Positions 7,010-29,054 of a stretch of 64,000 nt of DNA are shown here, piece after piece; position 1 is the first letter of the stretch; each line of letters starts with the position of its first letter. The stretch lies in the NCBI RefSeq assembly GCF_024449025.1, contig NZ_JAHLKM010000003.1, positions 62,001-126,000 of the forward strand, given 5' to 3'. The stretch is from Natronomonas aquatica (GTDB lineage Archaea > Halobacteriota > Halobacteria > Halobacteriales > Haloarculaceae). The notes under the pieces are model-generated. The model made no database searches. It had not been told where the DNA came from and was given only the letters and a program-made list of their open reading frames with translations. Both the position numbers and the translations under genes were made by a program.

Positions 7010-7429
7010 TCAGCGGACCACGGTGACTGGAACCGACGCGCGCCTGACGACCGTCTCCGCGACGCTCCCGAGCAGGATCCGCGAGAGCCCGTCGCGTCCG
7101 TGACTTCCCATAACGATCGTGTCGACGTCGTGTTCCTCGGCGTGCTCGAGGATCGTCCGGGGCGGCCGTCCGACGACGACGTCGGTCTCGACGTCGGTGT
7201 CGAACGCCTCGGCGGCCTCGGCCAACAGCTCCCGGCCGCTCTCTCCGGCTTTTTCGTACCATTCCTCCCAGTATCCCGGAACCACCGCGTCCGGGGGCGC
7301 GCTGTAGCCCGCCTCGGCGAGATCGAGCACGTACAGCAGGACGATCTCGTCGTCGTCGTGCTCGTCGTCGGCGTACGAGACGGCCGCCTCGGCCCCCTCG
7401 GAGCCGTCGTAGGGGATCAACACTCGCAT
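7010..7429 (-). CDS. Universal stress protein (UspA family)
   Basis: 139 residues with N-terminal MRVLIPYDGSEGAEAA and C-terminal DTIVMGSHGRDGLSRILLGSVAE, which contains the G-2x-G-9x-G(S/T) ATP-binding signature. It is therefore an ATP-binding-type Usp. It converges on the thioesterase gene with only ten bases between stops. Two other Usp genes occur in the window (51863 and 62868). The specific stress role is unknown. Confidence 0.9.
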   Translation of the reverse strand: MRVLIPYDGSEGAEAAVSYADDEHDDDEIVLLYVLDLAEAGYSAPPDAVVPGYWEEWYEKAGESGRELLAEAAEAFDTDVETDVVVGRPPRTILEHAEEHDVDTIVMGSHGRDGLSRILLGSVAETVVRRASVPVTVVR

Positions 7430-7505
7430 CGTCGCCGTATCTTACGGGTCGAAACAAATACGTTTCGCCGACAATCCCCCGATTTCGGCGTTCCGGAGTG
7501 GGTAG

Positions 7506-7964
7506 TCACTCGAAATCCGGGAGATCGTCGGGGGCCTCGTAGTCGGCCTCCCAGTCGATGTAGTCGGCCTTGAGGGTTCGGCTGACCGTATCGCCCAACT
7601 CGGCCAGCGCCGCGTTGATCTCCGAAACCGTCTCCCACGACTCCAGGTCCGGGTGAAGCCCCCGTTCCTTCCAGTCTTCGGGGATGCCGGGCGCGTGATA
7701 GCCGACCCGGTCAGCGAAGGAGTCCCAGAAGAAATCGAAGTGTTCGAGCATGCCGAGATCGGACACGATTTCGAACTCGCGTTCGTCGACGTCGGTCCGG
7801 TCGGCCCACGCCTCGAAGGCCTGCTCCCAGGCACCCTCTCGGAGCAGCTCCTCGATCTCCTCGCGTTTGTAATCGGTCTCGCCGACGACCTCGGCGTCCT
7901 CGTACTCGTTCGGATCGATCTCCTCGAGTTCCGGCGGCTCGGACGGTTCGACGTCAAGGGACAT
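7506..7964 (-). CDS. Conserved haloarchaeal hypothetical protein
   Basis: 152 residues, strongly acidic, no membrane segment and no recognisable motif. The N terminus (about 30 residues) is rich in Glu/Pro and probably disordered; the rest is predicted helical, with aromatic-rich segments such as HFDFFWDSFADRVGYHAPGIP. The ATG at 7964 begins a typical acidic haloarchaeal tail, while further upstream the frame is Arg-rich and looks non-coding. I do not recognise the family. Confidence 0.7.
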   Translation of the reverse strand: MSLDVEPSEPPELEEIDPNEYEDAEVVGETDYKREEIEELLREGAWEQAFEAWADRTDVDEREFEIVSDLGMLEHFDFFWDSFADRVGYHAPGIPEDWKERGLHPDLESWETVSEINAALAELGDTVSRTLKADYIDWEADYEAPDDLPDFE

Positions 7965-8108
7965 GTTCCGTGTTCGTTCGGGGCGGGAATAACCGTATCG
8001 TCTCACCCGATCGAACGAACCCCCGTCCCGTGGCGTCCGGCCGCCCCGACACTGTCCGCTCGAAGAATCCGGCGGATACTTGATTACCGTGGGGGCCGAA
8101 CCGCCGGT

Positions 8109-8309
8109 ATGGCTGTCGAGATCGTGCCGCCGACCCGGCGGATCTGCGAGCGCTGTGGGCGAACCGACGTCTGGGACGAGACGGACGAAAACTGGGTCAT
8201 CACAGAGGAGGACGGCGAACCGCAAACCGGAAACAAACACTGTATCCACGAGTGGGATATAAACGGCCAGTACAACCCGATAGCCGAGGAATCGGACGCG
8301 GACGCCTGA
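8109..8309 (+). CDS. HEWD-type small zinc-binding protein
   Basis: 66 residues. CERCGRTDVWDETDENW supplies a CxxC pair, and KHCIHEWDINGQYNPI supplies a Cys and His plus the HEWD motif that names this small haloarchaeal family. Together Cys, Cys, Cys and His could bind one zinc. No function is established that I know of. The gene stands alone between two genes on the opposite strand. Confidence 0.75.
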   Translation: MAVEIVPPTRRICERCGRTDVWDETDENWVITEEDGEPQTGNKHCIHEWDINGQYNPIAEESDADA

Positions 8310-8317
8310 TTTCGGCC

Positions 8318-8353
8318 GTCTACGTCATCCCCTGCGGCCGACTGTCTACGTCA
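8318..8353 (+). repeat. Short direct repeat in intergenic region
   Basis: The ten-base word GTCTACGTCA occurs at 8318-8327 and again at 8344-8353, 26 bases apart, each preceded by a GGCCG-containing stretch. It lies just after the HEWD gene. It could be a duplicated binding site or chance; nothing else is visible in the 160-base gap. Confidence 0.35.
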
Positions 8354-8471
8354 CTATCCTGTAGCACATCCGGGATCCGACGATCTTGATCGAAAAGCGG
8401 CTGGCGGCCCGTGTCAACCAGTCCGACGGCATCGCGAGTTCACCGATAGGACTGCGAGCGCCCGGTGGTCG

Positions 8472-9503
8472 TTACTCGGGGACCGGCGGCGACCAGGCGT
8501 GGTTGTCGGCGACGAAGTCGATAAAGCTGGGGAACTCGTGGTCGTGGCCGAGGATCTCCCGGGCGAACTCCGGCTCGGATGGATCGGTGAACCCGCCGGA
8601 GCCGACGGTCCGCCGCAGTACTTCCTCGGTACCGGCGGAACTGTCGGAGAAGGCCTCGGTGAACGCCTCCGGCGTGTCGCCGAAGCGTTCCTCGAACGTC
8701 TCGCGGGCGTTCCCGTAGGCGTCGGCGAGCCACGCCTCGCGGTGGCTCTGGTAGGCCTCCTCGTAGGCGCCGTGGAGTTCGGCGAACTCCCCCGGCGTCA
8801 GCGGGTCCGTCGCCGAGAGGAACGTGACGAACTCGACGACGGATCGGCGACTCACCGGATCATCCGGGTCGGCGCTCGGGAACCGGAGTTCGTCTATCGG
8901 CTCGCTTTGGGTGTTCGGCGACGGTACGAGCGCCGCGGTGTAAGCGTCGTCCGGTTCCGACCGGATGTACACGGTGTACTGGAACCGGTCGTGGTGGAAC
9001 TGGCGGACGATCTCCTCGTCGTAGCTGCCGCCGAGCCGGCCGTACCAGTTCGAAATCCCGAGGTCGACAAGCGGCGGCGAGAAGGCGTTCGGCGAGAACA
9101 CCACAGAGTTCAGCTCCGTGTGGCTCAACCGTGCGATACAGGGTATTTCCGCGAGTTCCTCGAGGACGCGCTCGCGGTCTCCATCGAGACTGGCCGTCCG
9201 GCCGCAGGACTCACAGACGACGCTCCGGCCCTTCGTCGGGTGTTCGGGGGTGACCGTGGGGACGTGATCGCCGACCGGCACGTCGGGGAGTTCGTACCGC
9301 CCACAGCCGACCGAGGCGAGTTCCTCCAGAGCCCGTCGGATCGGTCCCTCGGCGGTGACCGAGTACGGAACCGTCACCCCACAGGTCGTACACCGGACGA
9401 ACCGCTCGCGGGGGTGCAACGAGGGCGTGTGTTCGCGGGCAGCGACGTTCGGTTCGACGTTGAGATCCCGAAGCGTCGTCGACCGGGCGTCCTGCGTTGC
9501 CAT
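8472..9503 (-). CDS. Hypothetical protein with N-terminal CxxC zinc-ribbon-like motifs
   Basis: 343 residues from ATG at 9503. The N-terminal third carries two CxxC pairs, C38-C41 (CTTC) and C97-C100 (CESC), plus C67, suggesting one or two zinc-ribbon-like modules around a helical hairpin. The remaining 200 residues are acidic and without recognised motifs, apart from aromatic-rich strands (NWYGRLGGSYDEE, FHHDRFQYTVYIR). A TATA-like element about 25 bases upstream fits a leaderless transcript. I do not recognise the family; nucleic-acid binding is only a guess from the zinc motifs. Confidence 0.7.
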   Translation of the reverse strand: MATQDARSTTLRDLNVEPNVAAREHTPSLHPRERFVRCTTCGVTVPYSVTAEGPIRRALEELASVGCGRYELPDVPVGDHVPTVTPEHPTKGRSVVCESCGRTASLDGDRERVLEELAEIPCIARLSHTELNSVVFSPNAFSPPLVDLGISNWYGRLGGSYDEEIVRQFHHDRFQYTVYIRSEPDDAYTAALVPSPNTQSEPIDELRFPSADPDDPVSRRSVVEFVTFLSATDPLTPGEFAELHGAYEEAYQSHREAWLADAYGNARETFEERFGDTPEAFTEAFSDSSAGTEEVLRRTVGSGGFTDPSEPEFAREILGHDHEFPSFIDFVADNHAWSPPVPE

Positions 9504-9522
9504 GTCGGCCCGTTCAAATCCC

Positions 9523-9533
9523 GATTTAAAAAC
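9523..9533 (-). promoter_or_regulatory. TATA box for the CxxC protein gene
   Basis: Read on the minus strand this is GTTTTTAAATC, centred about 25 bases before the ATG at 9503. That is the spacing expected for a leaderless haloarchaeal transcript. Confidence 0.5.
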
Positions 9534-9641
9534 AGTACGGACGATATCGGCAGCGGATTCCGAACGCCGAAACCGCGCCGATACGGCAGCCGAAACGGAA
9601 CCGGGGTTTAATTGCGCAGTCCTCGAAGAGACGGCAACACC

Positions 9642-10364
9642 ATGTCGGGCCGGATCAACCCCCGCGAATACGACCTCGGCGAGTTGCGCGACGCGGCCCG
9701 CGAGGCGTCCCGACGCGGTATCGAGCCGGCCCGAGCGGCCGATCCCCACGAGTCCGAGACGGAACCACAGACGGCATCGGACCCCGACCCGGATTCCGGG
9801 TTCGGTTCCGAATCCGTCGCCGGGCCCTCGGAGGCTACCCCCGCTGACGGGGACAGGGCGGTATCGGCCGCCGAAGACCCCGAAGCGTACCTGCGATCGA
9901 GACAGCGGCGTGATCGCCACTCGGTCGACGAGTCACGACGGCCCGATTCCGGCGGACGGGAAACGCCCCGTTCCGGCGATAACGGCGGCCCGGGCCGGAA
10001 CGGGTCGACCGCCGTCGGGGCGCGGGTCGACGACCGTGGAACCGACTTCGAGTTCCTCCCGCGGGGGGCCGACGGCGATGTCTCCAGGCCGTACCTCGAG
10101 GAACTCCCCGGGGGCTACGGCGCACAGCTCGAGATCTTCGAGTGGCTCGACCGACTCATCGCTCGCGGCGGCTGCGAGGGGGCGATCTCGGCGCTCGAGT
10201 ACTACGAGTCGATCGAGTGGCTCTCGGCCGAGAGCCGGGCCGACCTCGAGGAGTTCGTCGCCGGGATCGGAACCGAGGACGCCGCCGCCGGATCGCTCGG
10301 GATGTCCGATCACCGCGAGAGCCTCTCGTATATCGCCCGCCTCGCCGGGCGTCGTCGTCGCTGA
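9642..10364 (+). CDS. Archaellum-related FlaD/FlaE (ArlD/E) domain protein
   Basis: 240 residues. Residues 1-145 are low-complexity, rich in Ser, Pro, Asp and Arg, and probably disordered. From about 150 to 230 the sequence YLEELPGGYGAQLEIFEWLDRLI, then ALEYYESIEWLSAESRADLEEF, matches the C-terminal FlaD/E domain, which in archaea forms part of the cytosolic platform around the archaellum motor and links it to chemotaxis. No archaellin or motor genes lie nearby, so it is a stray paralogue. The next gene, 64 bases downstream on the same strand, encodes an actin homologue. Confidence 0.78.
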   Translation: MSGRINPREYDLGELRDAAREASRRGIEPARAADPHESETEPQTASDPDPDSGFGSESVAGPSEATPADGDRAVSAAEDPEAYLRSRQRRDRHSVDESRRPDSGGRETPRSGDNGGPGRNGSTAVGARVDDRGTDFEFLPRGADGDVSRPYLEELPGGYGAQLEIFEWLDRLIARGGCEGAISALEYYESIEWLSAESRADLEEFVAGIGTEDAAAGSLGMSDHRESLSYIARLAGRRRR

Positions 10365-20552: not shown

Positions 20553-21933
20553 TCGTCTCACCTCCGTCGGTCGGCGCGACGTTGCCTTTGCGCTCGCTGA
20601 GATCGACGCTCGCGGCGATCTCCTTTCGGTGGCCCAACAGGCCCTCCGAGCGGTTCTGCATCATGTAGACGAGAACGACGCCGAGGAGGATGAACCGTAG
20701 TGAGCTGATGTTACCGATGGTGTATCCGAGCCATCCCAGCGGATCCAACGTGCTAAACGCCACATAGAAGTTGTTCGGCGAGGGAAGCGACGCACCGGGG
20801 CCCGAGACCGTGATCAAAAGCCCTCCCATGGCGGCCTCAACGACCCGTGCCAGTTGACGGGGTCCCTCGAAAAGGAACGCCGCGAAGACGGCGCCGCCGA
20901 CGACGCTGCCGGTGTTCGAGCCCGATCCGCCGACGATGAGCGCCGTGAAGATATAGAAGGTGACGATGGGGCGGAACGTGTTGGGATTGACGAAGCCGAA
21001 CGACCCCTGCCAGAGGATGCCGCCGAGCCCCATCAGCGCACAGCCGACCATGAAGACCTTGATTTTGACCCAGCGGGTGTCCTTGCCGAGCGACTGGGCG
21101 ACGAGTTCGTCCTCGCGGATCGCCTTCAGGACGCGACCGAACGGCGAGTTCCCGATACGAACCAACAGGACGTAGTAGGCCGTCACGACGAACAGCAGCA
21201 GAAACATCCCGTAGGTAAATCCGTTGACGACGCTGTTGTTGACACCGAGTGATACGCCGATACCGTAGGCGAGTTCGCCGATCGCGTTGGGATCGCCGCT
21301 CGGCCCGTAGAGGTAGGACGCTGGCGAGGATGTCGGGGTGTTGATACCCTGTCCGCCACCGGTCCCGAACTTGAAACCGAAGAGATTGACCACGTTGTAG
21401 CTGTTCGATTGGGGATCGGTGACCGTACCGGAGAAGTAATCAGCGTTGAGAACGAGTCGGATGATCTCCGAGAGGCCGACCGTTACGATCGCGAGGTAGT
21501 CGGCTTCGAGTTGGAGCGCCGGCAGTGCCGCGATGCCACCGACGATCGCCGTGATGACGAGCGCTCCGATGAGAGCGATGGGAACGGGAAGGCCGAATCC
21601 CGGCGGTGATCCCCCCGGCGGGGCCGCCAGAATCGACATAGAGTAAACGCCGACGGCCATGAAGCCGGCGATCCCGATATTAAAGAGACCGGTGTATCCC
21701 CAGTGGAGGTTCAACGCCAGCGCCATGATGGCGTAGACGGCGATGAGGAACGTGAGGTTCTGCAGGGAGTTGGCGACTGCCGGGAACACGTCGGCGTTGT
21801 TCATCAAAGCGAGGTAAACCTGGCTGACCGCATAGAGGAGGTAGGTACCGGCGAGAAGCGCGATGATGAGTCGTTTGTCGTCTTCTTTGATCGAGGACGG
21901 GACTGCCCTCCAGAGCCGCTGGCCGACGCTCAT
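20545..21933 (-). CDS. livM: Branched-chain amino acid-type ABC transporter permease LivM
   Basis: 462 residues with about ten membrane helices. ALNLHWGYTGLFNIGIAGFM and the cytoplasmic coupling segment SPFGRVLKAIREDELVAQSLG are LivM hallmarks. It is longer than typical LivM because of a loop of roughly 70 residues between helices (from TDPQSNSYNVVN to NSVVNGFTYG) and a C-terminal soluble tail. ATG at 21933 overlaps the livH stop. It pairs with LivH to form the translocation channel. Confidence 0.9.
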   Translation of the reverse strand: MSVGQRLWRAVPSSIKEDDKRLIIALLAGTYLLYAVSQVYLALMNNADVFPAVANSLQNLTFLIAVYAIMALALNLHWGYTGLFNIGIAGFMAVGVYSMSILAAPPGGSPPGFGLPVPIALIGALVITAIVGGIAALPALQLEADYLAIVTVGLSEIIRLVLNADYFSGTVTDPQSNSYNVVNLFGFKFGTGGGQGINTPTSSPASYLYGPSGDPNAIGELAYGIGVSLGVNNSVVNGFTYGMFLLLFVVTAYYVLLVRIGNSPFGRVLKAIREDELVAQSLGKDTRWVKIKVFMVGCALMGLGGILWQGSFGFVNPNTFRPIVTFYIFTALIVGGSGSNTGSVVGGAVFAAFLFEGPRQLARVVEAAMGGLLITVSGPGASLPSPNNFYVAFSTLDPLGWLGYTIGNISSLRFILLGVVLVYMMQNRSEGLLGHRKEIAASVDLSERKGNVAPTDGGETNE

Positions 21934-24922: not shown

Positions 24923-24996
24923 GCCAGGGGAGCTTGGGTGGTTCAAGCACCCGACTTGTAATCGGGAGTTCGTGGGTTCAAATCCCACCCCTGGCT
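24923..24996 (+). tRNA. tRNA-Thr (anticodon UGU)
   Basis: Acceptor stem GCCAGGG (24923-24929) pairs with CCCTGGC (24989-24995), and T is the discriminator. Anticodon stem CCCGA/TCGGG encloses the loop CTTGTAA, giving anticodon TGT. The T arm GTGGG-TTCAAAT-CCCAC is perfect. No intron and no encoded CCA. It is the left boundary of a lower-G+C segment that reaches about 28.0 kb. Confidence 0.95.
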
Positions 24997-25050
24997 TGAT
25001 ACTATTCGTTCACCGCCTTCGATTCCGTTGAGATATCATCTTCAGAAATA

Positions 25051-27090
25051 TTAGCGAGGGGCTTCGAGTGCTGTTTCTGCGGACGGAATGTCGTCGTCCC
25101 TACACTGTTCTAACTCGGCTTCTAGCCCTTCGATCCCAATTGCAGCCACTGCTCGACAAGCAGCCTCACGGACGCCGCGTTCGTCGTCGGTCAACAGTCG
25201 TCGCAAGATCGGTTCGAGATCGAAAGAATCGGGAACCGCGTTTCGACCGAGTGCAGCGAGGACGACGCACGCCGATCCGCGGACACCCGCGGCCGAATGC
25301 GTAAGACAATCCGGCATCCACGAGGCAGGGTCCCGGATGAGATCCGGATCGTACTCGGCCAGGGATGCGAGCGCACCGATCGCATTAACGGTTCGGTTGT
25401 CCATCGCGCTATCGTGATCGATGGGTTGTGTCTCCAGAACCGCGTTCAGTCCAGACGCGTACGGCTCGAGCTTCTCGGGGTGTTCTACTGCGAGTTCGTT
25501 CGCCAAAAACAGGGCATCGAACCGGACAGCGTCGTTCGTGAGATACGTATCGAAATGCGCCGGGACGGTCACTGCATCCGGGTGTTCCCGGGCGATATTG
25601 GCGAGCACTTGAAGGCCAATACTGGTCACGGTCGGCGGTTGCCCCGCATCGAGTCGGTCACGGATGTTTTCAGCGACTCGTTCGGGGTCGTCTTCGGCAA
25701 TAGCGGTGAGCAACCGAATAAGGCCACGGCGTAGGCGGACGTGTTCGCTGTTTGCCTCGATGGTCGAGGTCAACGCAGCGAGCATTCCTTCGTCGTGGGG
25801 ATCAGCGGGAGCCTGAATCGGCGCTGTTCCCGCCGCCAGAATATCAGCGAGATGGGAGCGGACTGTTGCGGCGTCAGCTTCCGCCCACTCCGCAAGCGCA
25901 TGAACAGCCGCATTGCGTACCTTTTCATCCGCATCATCGAGCCGATCGACCAGAGCCGAGACGATGCGTTCAACGTCGTCACTCGACAGTTCGTCCCGAA
26001 CATCGGCAATGTAATGAAGCGTCTGGACGGCGTTCTGTCGTGTTAAGTCATAAGAATCGTCAAGCGCGTCGATCGCTGCCGGGATGGCCGGGATCGCCAC
26101 ATCCGGATACTTCCGAGCCCCGTCAGATAGATCAGATGAGGCCGTAGAGCGTTCAGTTTTGCTGTTCGAAGCCATCCGCTCCTGTAAGGAGTCGAGGTCC
26201 GCTGCGAAGTCATCCGGCTGCCTGTATCCGGGATCTAAACTGTCATCCCCACCTTCCCGGAAGACATCGCCTTCGCTTTCGAGTTCGGTTTTCGTCCCGG
26301 ATCGAATGTTCGAGGCAAAGGTCTCGGCGTCACCCTCGGAGAGCAGAAAGCGCCGATACGATTGAACCGTCGATTCGAGGTCGTCCGGTTCGGCTGTCTC
26401 CACGGTGACCATGGTCGGCATTTCAGCCGATGGGAGGACAGCGGAACTAACAGCGAATAGTCCGGCAGGGACGATCGTGCTGACTGGATCTCGAGTGATG
26501 ACAAAGATAACGATGGCAAATACAACACTGAACCCGACCATCGTGTTGCGGACATTGTGGACGCTTTCGTCATCTACGCTCACTTCAGTCACGTGGCTCG
26601 GGACAATGAGGTATTCGTATTCGATCTCCTGATACGTGTTCTCGAACGATCCGACGTATTCCTGAAAATCGATATCAGCGGTTCCGAGTTTTTGTTTGAT
26701 TTCGTCTATATCGACGGACGTCGCTTCGATACCGTCTTGGAGAGTCGTAACCGCGGCCGGTTGGCCGACCAATCCGGCGTCGAATGGATCAGCTTCGATC
26801 TCCTCTGAAAGACCCAAATCATCGGTTAACAACGGTTGTCCGGTCACCCAACCAAGCCCGATTCCGCCGATGAAGGCCATTATCAACGCGAGTATCCAAT
26901 GGCCGAGGAAGAACAGGGCAATTCCCGCGATGACACCGGGAAGGAACGGAAGGGTTCGTTTCAGATTGGAGTGTTGTGCCAGTCTGCGAACCGAGACGAG
27001 TTCCCCCACCTTACAGTAGACAGTGTTGACAGTGCCGTCCTCGTCTTCGGTTTCGAGTTCGATCTCGGTAGCCGAGGCGTTGGATGGCAT
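25051..27090 (-). CDS. Membrane protein with C-terminal HEAT-like repeats
   Basis: 679 residues. Two helix pairs are predicted at about 48-84 and 184-220, with a soluble domain of about 100 residues between them (ending in NTYQEIEYEYLIVPSHVTEVS). From about 320 to 670 the sequence is a series of helical pairs of HEAT type, for instance VSALVDRLDDADEKVRNAAV and LTDDERGVREAACRAVAAIG. HEAT arrays are protein-binding scaffolds. G+C is visibly lower than in flanking core genes. It is divergent from a polytopic membrane protein at 27160, with an AT-rich shared promoter between. I recognise no characterised family. Confidence 0.75.
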   Translation of the reverse strand: MPSNASATEIELETEDEDGTVNTVYCKVGELVSVRRLAQHSNLKRTLPFLPGVIAGIALFFLGHWILALIMAFIGGIGLGWVTGQPLLTDDLGLSEEIEADPFDAGLVGQPAAVTTLQDGIEATSVDIDEIKQKLGTADIDFQEYVGSFENTYQEIEYEYLIVPSHVTEVSVDDESVHNVRNTMVGFSVVFAIVIFVITRDPVSTIVPAGLFAVSSAVLPSAEMPTMVTVETAEPDDLESTVQSYRRFLLSEGDAETFASNIRSGTKTELESEGDVFREGGDDSLDPGYRQPDDFAADLDSLQERMASNSKTERSTASSDLSDGARKYPDVAIPAIPAAIDALDDSYDLTRQNAVQTLHYIADVRDELSSDDVERIVSALVDRLDDADEKVRNAAVHALAEWAEADAATVRSHLADILAAGTAPIQAPADPHDEGMLAALTSTIEANSEHVRLRRGLIRLLTAIAEDDPERVAENIRDRLDAGQPPTVTSIGLQVLANIAREHPDAVTVPAHFDTYLTNDAVRFDALFLANELAVEHPEKLEPYASGLNAVLETQPIDHDSAMDNRTVNAIGALASLAEYDPDLIRDPASWMPDCLTHSAAGVRGSACVVLAALGRNAVPDSFDLEPILRRLLTDDERGVREAACRAVAAIGIEGLEAELEQCRDDDIPSAETALEAPR

Positions 27091-27112
27091 ATTCTACCAT
27101 ACCGGAACCAAC

Positions 27113-27126
27113 TTTTATAAAATATA
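27113..27126. promoter_or_regulatory. Shared AT-rich divergent promoter
   Basis: TTTTATAAAATATA lies between two divergent genes. It is 23-36 bases from the minus-strand ATG at 27090, fitting a leaderless start, and 34-47 bases before the plus-strand GTG at 27160. Confidence 0.55.
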
Positions 27127-27159
27127 CGGGGCAATACCTCAGACAGGAGATGGTCGCGA

Positions 27160-27978
27160 GTGGTCACCGTCGCCAGTGTTCTGATCGGGCTCCCCTTCGT
27201 TCTCATCGGGCTTACCTTTGCGTTCGCCGGCCGTGATATTCACCACAAGCTAATCAGTACGTTCGGTTTCGTAGTCGGGTTTTCGACGGTCATTATCGGG
27301 TTTTCACCCCTCCTTACCGAGGCCTGGATATCAGGCGCGTGGCTCGGATTCCTTGGTCGGCTGATCCTCGCACTCATAATCGCCGGCCTCTTCGGCCTTC
27401 TCGGGATTCACTGGGCATGGTTCGTCTACCGGTTCTCTATCACCTTTCCCGGCGGCGTTGCGGGGGCGTTCCTCGCTGTGCTCTTGGTGAGGCCGGTCGA
27501 GGGGATTGACTGGCTCATCCTCTTGGGTGCGTTCGTTCTCGGTGGGCACATCGCCTGGCGACTCCACGAGATGTTTCTCGTCATCAACACGTCTTGGCTC
27601 GGTAGCATCCTTGTCGGGGTCGGTATCGTCTGGACGCGTCTCCCCAGCCTTCCGATCGTTCAGACCCCGGGTCGGTTGCTTACCGACCCGATCGGGGTAC
27701 TCGAAGCGACGATAGCAATGCTCGGACTCGTCGCTTTTGTGATCATGGTCGTCTTTGTGCTCGGGCTTCTCGTTCAGTGGAGCGAGATATCCGTTCTTAG
27801 TGCTCTCAGCGGTTTCTTTGGGATCTTTCCGAGCCTGCCGCTGGAGAGTAGTATCCCGACGCGGCCGTCCGTTACAGAAGAAGATGAATCTCGAACTGTT
27901 CAGAAGGCTCAGACGACACAAGAGTCGGTTGCACCGACATCAGAACCCGACGACGAGTCCGGATTTTACGAGAAGTAA
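27160..27978 (+). CDS. Polytopic membrane protein, unknown function
   Basis: 272 residues from GTG at 27160, with about seven hydrophobic segments beginning at residue 4 (VASVLIGLPFVLIGLTFAFA) and ending near residue 235. An acidic cytoplasmic tail follows, including EEDESRTVQKAQTTQES. No family is recognised. It is divergent from the HEAT membrane protein across a 69-base AT-rich gap and shares its lower G+C, which suggests the two arrived and work together. Confidence 0.65.
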   Translation: MVTVASVLIGLPFVLIGLTFAFAGRDIHHKLISTFGFVVGFSTVIIGFSPLLTEAWISGAWLGFLGRLILALIIAGLFGLLGIHWAWFVYRFSITFPGGVAGAFLAVLLVRPVEGIDWLILLGAFVLGGHIAWRLHEMFLVINTSWLGSILVGVGIVWTRLPSLPIVQTPGRLLTDPIGVLEATIAMLGLVAFVIMVVFVLGLLVQWSEISVLSALSGFFGIFPSLPLESSIPTRPSVTEEDESRTVQKAQTTQESVAPTSEPDDESGFYEK

Positions 27979-28184
27979 GCAGGGGCAATAGCAATCGGTA
28001 TATTCCCGACACCGTGACTCAAGTATGGTTGCGAACAGGCGGCTCCACTTCGCCACAGTCCGTGCACCGCGCTCCCGCCCAGACGGACCGTGGCCGCTCG
28101 TCAGTTCATACGGTCGGTGGTCCGGTGCTGGTATATAAACTCTCGGCCAGCACGGGACGAACGGAAACGAGAGAGTGAGGTCGC

Positions 28185-29054
28185 TTACAGCAGGTCTTCG
28201 ACGTAGTCGGCGACCTGGTTGGGCGTATCCCCGACGGAGACGCCCGCGGCGTTCAGCGCGTCGATCTTCGATTCGGCGGTCCCGGTCCCCGACCCGGAGA
28301 CGATCGCGCCGGCGTGACCCATCCGCTTGCCCGGCGGGGCGGTGCGGCCGGCGATGAAGCCGACGACGGGCGTGTCCATGTGCTCGCCGATGTAGGCGGC
28401 GGCATCCTCCTCGTCCTCGCCGCCGATCTCGCCACACATCACGATCGCTTCGGTCTCGGGGTCGGCCTCGTAAAGTTCGAGGACGTCGATGAAGTCGGTC
28501 CCGATGATCGGATCGCCGCCGATGCCGACGGCGGAGGTCTGGCCGATCCCACGCTGGGTGAGGTTGTCGACGACTTGGTAGGTGAGCGTCCCCGAACGCG
28601 AGACGAACCCGACGTTGCCCTCCGAGAAGATGTTCCCGGGGAGGATCCCGAGTTTGGTCTCGCCGGGCGTGATGAGTCCGGGACAGTTGGGTCCGATGAG
28701 ATGGGTGTCCGTCCCGCGGAGTTTCCGGTAGACCTTCGCCATGTCCTGCTGGGGGACGCCCTCGGTGATGGCCACGACGAGATCCAGCGGGGCGTCGAGC
28801 GCCTCGAAGATCGCGTCGGTGGCGAACGCGGGCGGGACGAAGACGACAGAGGCGTTGGCGTCCTCCTCGCGGGCGGCCCGATCGACCGTATCGTAGACCG
28901 GGACGCCCGCGACCTCCTGGCCGCCGCGTCCGGGCACCGCGCCCGCGACGACGTTCGTCCCGTACTCGATCATCTGGCCGGCGTGGAACTTGCCTTCGCC
29001 GCCGGTGATGCCCTGTACCACGACGCGCGTATCGTTGTCGACGAGGATGCTCAT
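28185..29054 (-). CDS. sucD: Succinyl-CoA synthetase, alpha subunit
   Basis: 289 residues. [18 protein letters not shown] (CoA-binding Rossmann fold), [15 protein letters not shown] and [19 protein letters not shown], which carries the phosphohistidine, are intact. With SucC it interconverts succinyl-CoA and succinate with nucleotide phosphorylation. The ATG overlaps the sucC stop by four bases. The pair faces the propionyl-CoA carboxylase operon across about 300 bases. Confidence 0.95.

Follow-up and report, generated by a model that had tools for sequence, protein, structure and literature searches.

An apparently strain-specific pair of low-G+C genes beside a tRNA-Thr gene of Natronomonas aquatica, predicted to encode a membrane-tethered HEAT-repeat protein and a polytopic TM198-like protein

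Archaeal "dark matter islands" are clusters of narrowly spread, fast-evolving genes that are enriched in membrane proteins, and about 15% of their genes are defence genes, according to the available text of the source (PMC4158269). As far as that text goes, the gene pair described here appears to fit the general kind, with the difference that it comprises two genes only and that no mobile-element gene was seen. Both of its products have described counterparts among haloarchaeal proteins. With the soluble HEAT-repeat proteins (HEAT_2/HEAT_EZ), the 679-aa protein shares a C-terminal HEAT array and 25 to 40% local identity to several members, whereas its N-terminal membrane part has no relative that we could find. 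Moreover, a predicted membrane segment is missing from 20 of the 22 HEAT-matching ORFs compared from other genomes (taken from 24 loci, two of which gave no ORF match) and occurs once in each of the remaining 2; a membrane-anchored HEAT architecture is therefore unusual in this sample. The 272-aa protein resembles the TM198-like membrane proteins (~222 aa) in its weak Pfam match and in the alignment of the genus copies over much of its length, but it differs from them in an extra, charged C-terminal tail, in its place in the genome, and in having a HEAT gene as its neighbor. A full-text literature search returned no paper on TM198-like/TM7S3/DUF4203 membrane proteins of archaea; a second search, which combined HEAT repeats, haloarchaea, membranes, and defense islands, showed no such pair among the best 10 of 16 matches, judged by title and opening of the abstract.

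The pair lies in a chromosomal stretch of 64,000 nucleotides of the source genome (G000:C39:62001-126000), all of which was analyzed and which we call the window; its acidic proteins, G+C content, and genes mark it as haloarchaeal. From left to right, the gene order is branched-chain amino-acid transporter genes, pgk, a GNAT acetyltransferase gene, tRNA-Thr(TGT), the 679-aa ORF, the 272-aa ORF, sucD, and sucC; the two membrane genes (hereafter the HEAT gene and the TM gene) are the sole genes between tRNA-Thr and sucD. The features are as follows.

24923-24996, plus strand: tRNA-Thr(TGT) gene (ARAGORN), left border of the variable segment
25051-27090, minus strand: gene for the 679-aa membrane/HEAT protein (ORF, Pfam HEAT, hydropathy, AlphaFold2, Foldseek)
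27091-27159, no strand: divergent AT-rich spacer of 69 bp (sequence), a putative promoter region
27113-27124, within the spacer: palindromic TATA-like motif, TTTTATAAAATA
27160-27978, plus strand: gene for the 272-aa polytopic membrane protein, GTG start (ORF, weak Pfam TM7S3_TM198 match, BLASTP)
27979-28184, no strand: sucD-proximal intergenic region (three-way alignment)
28185-29054: sucD

In the three-way alignment, intergenic DNA from ~28030 onward aligns with that of a second member of the genus (G006), and we therefore place the right border of the unique segment at ~28030. Misassembly is unlikely, since G006 has the flanks in the same order.

The composition shift is real and is strongest in the HEAT and TM genes. 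G+C content falls to 0.54-0.59 in the 1-kb windows at ~25.0-28.0 kb, against 0.60-0.73 in nearly all of the remaining stretch, and the two genes are affected together (HEAT gene, GC 0.573 and GC3 0.610; TM gene, GC 0.574 and GC3 0.681). The GC3 of flanking genes is far higher (sucD, 0.903; sucC, 0.869; pgk, 0.826; GNAT, 0.821), and the mean over 51 window ORFs is 0.82. These 51 ORFs were picked by a simple rule, and some are perhaps not real genes; by a leave-one-out codon-usage score, the HEAT gene (z, -3.66) and the TM gene (z, -2.87) are the lowest among them. The third-lowest score belongs to ORF 20854-21252 on the plus strand, which runs antisense to a transporter gene and is probably spurious. 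Left of the tRNA, the transporter genes show a milder shift (~0.60 G+C). A preliminary description of this DNA had reported a divergent membrane gene pair beside tRNA-Thr, departing from the core in composition and codon use and encoding a 679-residue membrane protein with a C-terminal HEAT array and a polytopic partner. Its account stands on each of these points: the ORFs and the tRNA lie where it put them, the G+C drop and the two lowest codon scores bear out the shift, Pfam HEAT units and hydrophobic stretches are present in the larger protein, and the 272-aa ORF is polytopic and on the opposite strand. It had also proposed one common AT-rich promoter. The 69-bp spacer is indeed AT rich (43% G+C) and holds a TATA-like near-palindrome, TTTTATAAAATA, whose exact sequence is unique in the window, while the promoter role itself is our interpretation. 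The motif lies ~25 to 30 bases from the ATG of the HEAT gene and ~40 from the GTG of the TM gene; given the usual spacing of archaeal TATA boxes from the start, this position would fit a TATA box able to serve both directions, and both genes may be jointly regulated from this one site. A bacterial promoter scan, whose reach does not extend to archaeal promoters, gave no match.

The HEAT array of the 679-aa protein spans residues ~310-670 and scores above the Pfam cut-offs (in parentheses) for HEAT_EZ at 44.5 bits (27), HEAT_2 at 40.5 (27.7), and HEAT at 35.4 (23.5), which places the protein among the HEAT-repeat families. NCBIfam returned HEAT-type matches, all under cut-off, and the two repeat-protein matches of a PDB sequence search both fall in the HEAT part. 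AlphaFold2, run on the single sequence, gave a confident alpha-solenoid only at ~460-678, and Foldseek with the HEAT model retrieved generic solenoids of the importin/karyopherin type; the models of the membrane part and of the TM protein were of low confidence, and neither was used for fold claims. The membrane part had no Pfam match at an E value of ≤10. By hydropathy, it contains hydrophobic stretches at residues ~53-87 and ~177-224, consistent with two membrane hairpins that would anchor the protein. Basic residues precede the first stretch; read by the positive-inside rule, these residues and the two hairpins point to a cytosolic N terminus and a cytosolic HEAT array, and the acidic HEAT solenoid could then present a docking surface in the cytosol. 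A different membrane-anchored HEAT design is seen in one other genus (g96), where two HEAT proteins (L016 and L021) each have a single predicted membrane segment.

The 272-aa protein aligns with profile positions 4-199 of 199 of Pfam TM7S3_TM198 (PF13886), although the match (E, 2.2e-5; 24.7 bits) is below the curated cut-off of 29.2, so that by score it falls outside the TM7S3/TM198 family. As an independent check on its closeness to TM198-like copies we used BLASTP, by which it belongs with the haloarchaeal TM198-like group; its best matches among the genus proteins (the G008 and G004 copies) have an E value of 6e-8, at 26 to 30% identity. NCBIfam gave two matches, both below cut-off, and a PDB sequence search none. 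The family is present in 20 of 20 genus genomes and in 40 of 146 genomes of the taxonomic family, counts that derive from an alignment of three rows, the window protein included, and show the family rather than closeness to the window copy. The source genome also carries a regular (core) copy (C19:264118-264765), to which the core protein of G006 is the closest (82.5%); from a further genus of the family, the copies reach 41 to 46% identity with it. From these comparisons the 272-aa protein is best regarded as a strongly diverged second TM198-like member; it is not a recent duplicate, since its best matches reach only 26 to 30%, versus 41 to 46% between the copies of that further genus and the core copy of the source genome. 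Its position in a tree of TM proteins is uninformative, as its branch is very long and its composition unusual.

No close counterpart of either protein was found elsewhere. With the whole HEAT protein as the query, partial matches in the HEAT part alone were found in 7 of 59 other relatives and in 18 of 390 other genomes of the class. The 286-aa membrane part had no match at an E value of ≤1e-3 in 145 other family genomes, including all 19 other genus genomes, and matched weakly in 1 of the 390 class genomes (G247; E, 2e-4). This match was rejected as chance, because it lies on the strand opposite two genes, a GTPase-like one and the start of an HtpX-like one (names from translations). The TM protein matched in 3 of the 390 class genomes at an E value of ≤1e-3; two of the matches are TM198-like (G004 and G277), and the third (G104), antisense inside a helicase-like ORF (again named from its translation), was rejected. 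Plasmids held no match, no relative emerged when viral contigs and an 84,980-genome collection were scanned by pattern, PHROGs yielded no convincing match, and no second locus with the HEAT gene and the TM gene together was found outside the source genome. These absences are absences from sequence searches, which very diverged copies would escape. What we found is thus not the genus-wide synteny with core-like codon use that the preliminary description had set against its own proposal; the pair is absent from the genus genomes searched, and because of this it was either gained or very narrowly kept. By these searches the two genes form a real strain-specific accessory pair.

Our reading, which we hold with some confidence though well short of certainty, is that the segment at ~24997-28030 is a strain-specific transferred cassette encoding a membrane-tethered HEAT scaffold and a polytopic partner, most likely acquired by horizontal transfer. 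Origin by transfer is likely, without a visible vehicle: no donor, integrase, transposase, or att repeat for the pair was found. Because the divergent genes have a common composition shift and a common spacer, coacquisition and assembly into one membrane complex are suggested. A different history, which we consider unlikely, is that the genes are old, vertically inherited, and fast evolving, that they were lost in relatives, that relaxed selection lowered their G+C content, and that the TM gene arose by an old duplication of its core TM198-like counterpart. Atypical composition is frequent in orphan genes, and that of orphan membrane genes can also reflect fast evolution or relaxed selection; the core copy in the source genome and the presence of the family throughout the genus fit this history as well. 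However, it requires parallel losses in the relatives, and the TM protein is less similar to the core copies of its own genus than the core copies of another genus are to that of the source genome. We prefer transfer. The genes resemble an accessory pair of recent acquisition, and such pairs are nothing unusual.

The site itself varies among relatives. Among the sucD loci that we retrieved from the rest of the genus (18 in all), only 2, both from near relatives, have tRNA-Thr near sucD. One of them, G004, has ~125 bp and no gene between the two; the other, G006 (a genome 67% complete), has 763 bp, filled by an unrelated hydrophobic ORF with no Pfam and no PADLOC match.

L063:1941-2456, minus strand: 171-aa orphan membrane ORF of G006, in the tRNA-Thr/sucD gap

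The comparison with an empty site that the preliminary description had called for thus shows one short site and one with another ORF, both without the pair. The pgk-GNAT-tRNA-Thr order is kept in 14 of the 15 pgk loci fetched from the genus, the 15th ending at a contig end, and also in G006. The tRNA flank was read in 14 other genus loci; in every one of them tRNA-Thr is followed by other genes, which differ by species, and the 3′ side of this tRNA gene is thus a recurrent variable junction, partly via changes in gene order. Among these loci (L102-L115), the genes 3′ of tRNA-Thr(TGT) include, for example, glycosyltransferase-like, HicB-like plus PIN-like, and transporter genes (names from translations).

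The placement of the pair directly 3′ of the tRNA, and the fact that other species likewise carry variable genes on this 3′ side, also fit the view that the pair is cargo or a remnant of an element that a tyrosine integrase inserted at tRNA-Thr and that has since decayed. We regard this as quite improbable. The 20-base 3′ end of the tRNA occurs once in the genome (up to 1 mismatch) and once in the window (up to 3), no direct repeat of it is present at the right border, no integrase lies between tRNA-Thr and sucD, and the G004 site is simply short. The locus therefore has neither the far-border repeat nor the integrase of a tRNA-integrated element, and the earlier suggestion that the tRNA gene served as an integration site is not borne out. 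Under the preferred reading, the cassette would have entered by homologous or illegitimate recombination, not through a tRNA-targeted integrase, at a junction of species-variable content.

The TM198-like protein would be the polytopic membrane partner of the 679-aa protein; joint work is probable, the case for it being adjacency in a single genome. As a first guess, the role is that of an envelope or transport scaffold, with stress or conflict as other options. The preliminary description had proposed a membrane sensing or defence module and had suggested looking for the two genes together in defence islands; no second locus was found, and the proposal fares poorly. In its antivirus form, the HEAT solenoid would detect an infection, or some protein of a virus, at the membrane, and the effector would be its polytopic partner, which might, for instance, disturb the membrane. 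Strain specificity, divergent arrangement, a membrane plus repeat scaffold, and the defence genes in dark matter islands (PMC4158269, in the text available) are in keeping with this, as are weak PADLOC matches of the 679-aa protein to OloA (E, 6e-5) and HEAT-ARM_XIII (E, 1e-3; ZorF at an E value of 0.3 only). All of these matches fall within the HEAT repeats, however, and the 272-aa protein had no PADLOC match. Olokun has a two-gene make-up; here, only positions 150-287 of the 596 of the OloA profile are covered, rather than the whole length, and the partner is unmatched. The gene neighborhood is metabolic, and nine scanned neighbors gave two PADLOC matches, both for ordinary ABC-transporter ATPases, where the ATPase fold accounts for the match. 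We accordingly think a defence role quite improbable. Similarly, it would be a long shot to see here a new archaeal two-component membrane system, in which an orphan double-hairpin module fused to a cytosolic HEAT solenoid works with a channel- or scaffold-like TM198-like partner in virus conflict or envelope stress. The pair illustrates cleanly how gene content at a tRNA/core-operon junction turns over between species with no integrase visible, and it includes an unusual, apparently membrane-anchored HEAT protein.

A related HEAT gene of the 438-aa type also lies ~1.2 kb downstream of the core TM198-like gene in the source genome and in G004, with a 276-aa gene between.

L147 (G000:C19), 7113-10282: core TM198-like/HEAT region of the source genome
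L078, 6764-9869: core TM198-like/HEAT region of G004

No HEAT homologue was found near the core gene in the other 18 of the 20 genus copies (19 short loci plus the source genome), several of which were read for only ~1.5 kb on each side; the query was the 438-aa-type protein, and unrelated HEAT genes would escape it. Among the matches listed, G017 has a HEAT relative elsewhere, not by its core TM198-like gene. The two neighborhoods are suggestive only of a wider HEAT/TM198 partnership, which, if true, would offer a first way into the function of a family found in every genus genome searched. The core TM198-like gene is followed instead, in several of the other genomes, by a geranylgeranyl-reductase-like gene (name from its translation).
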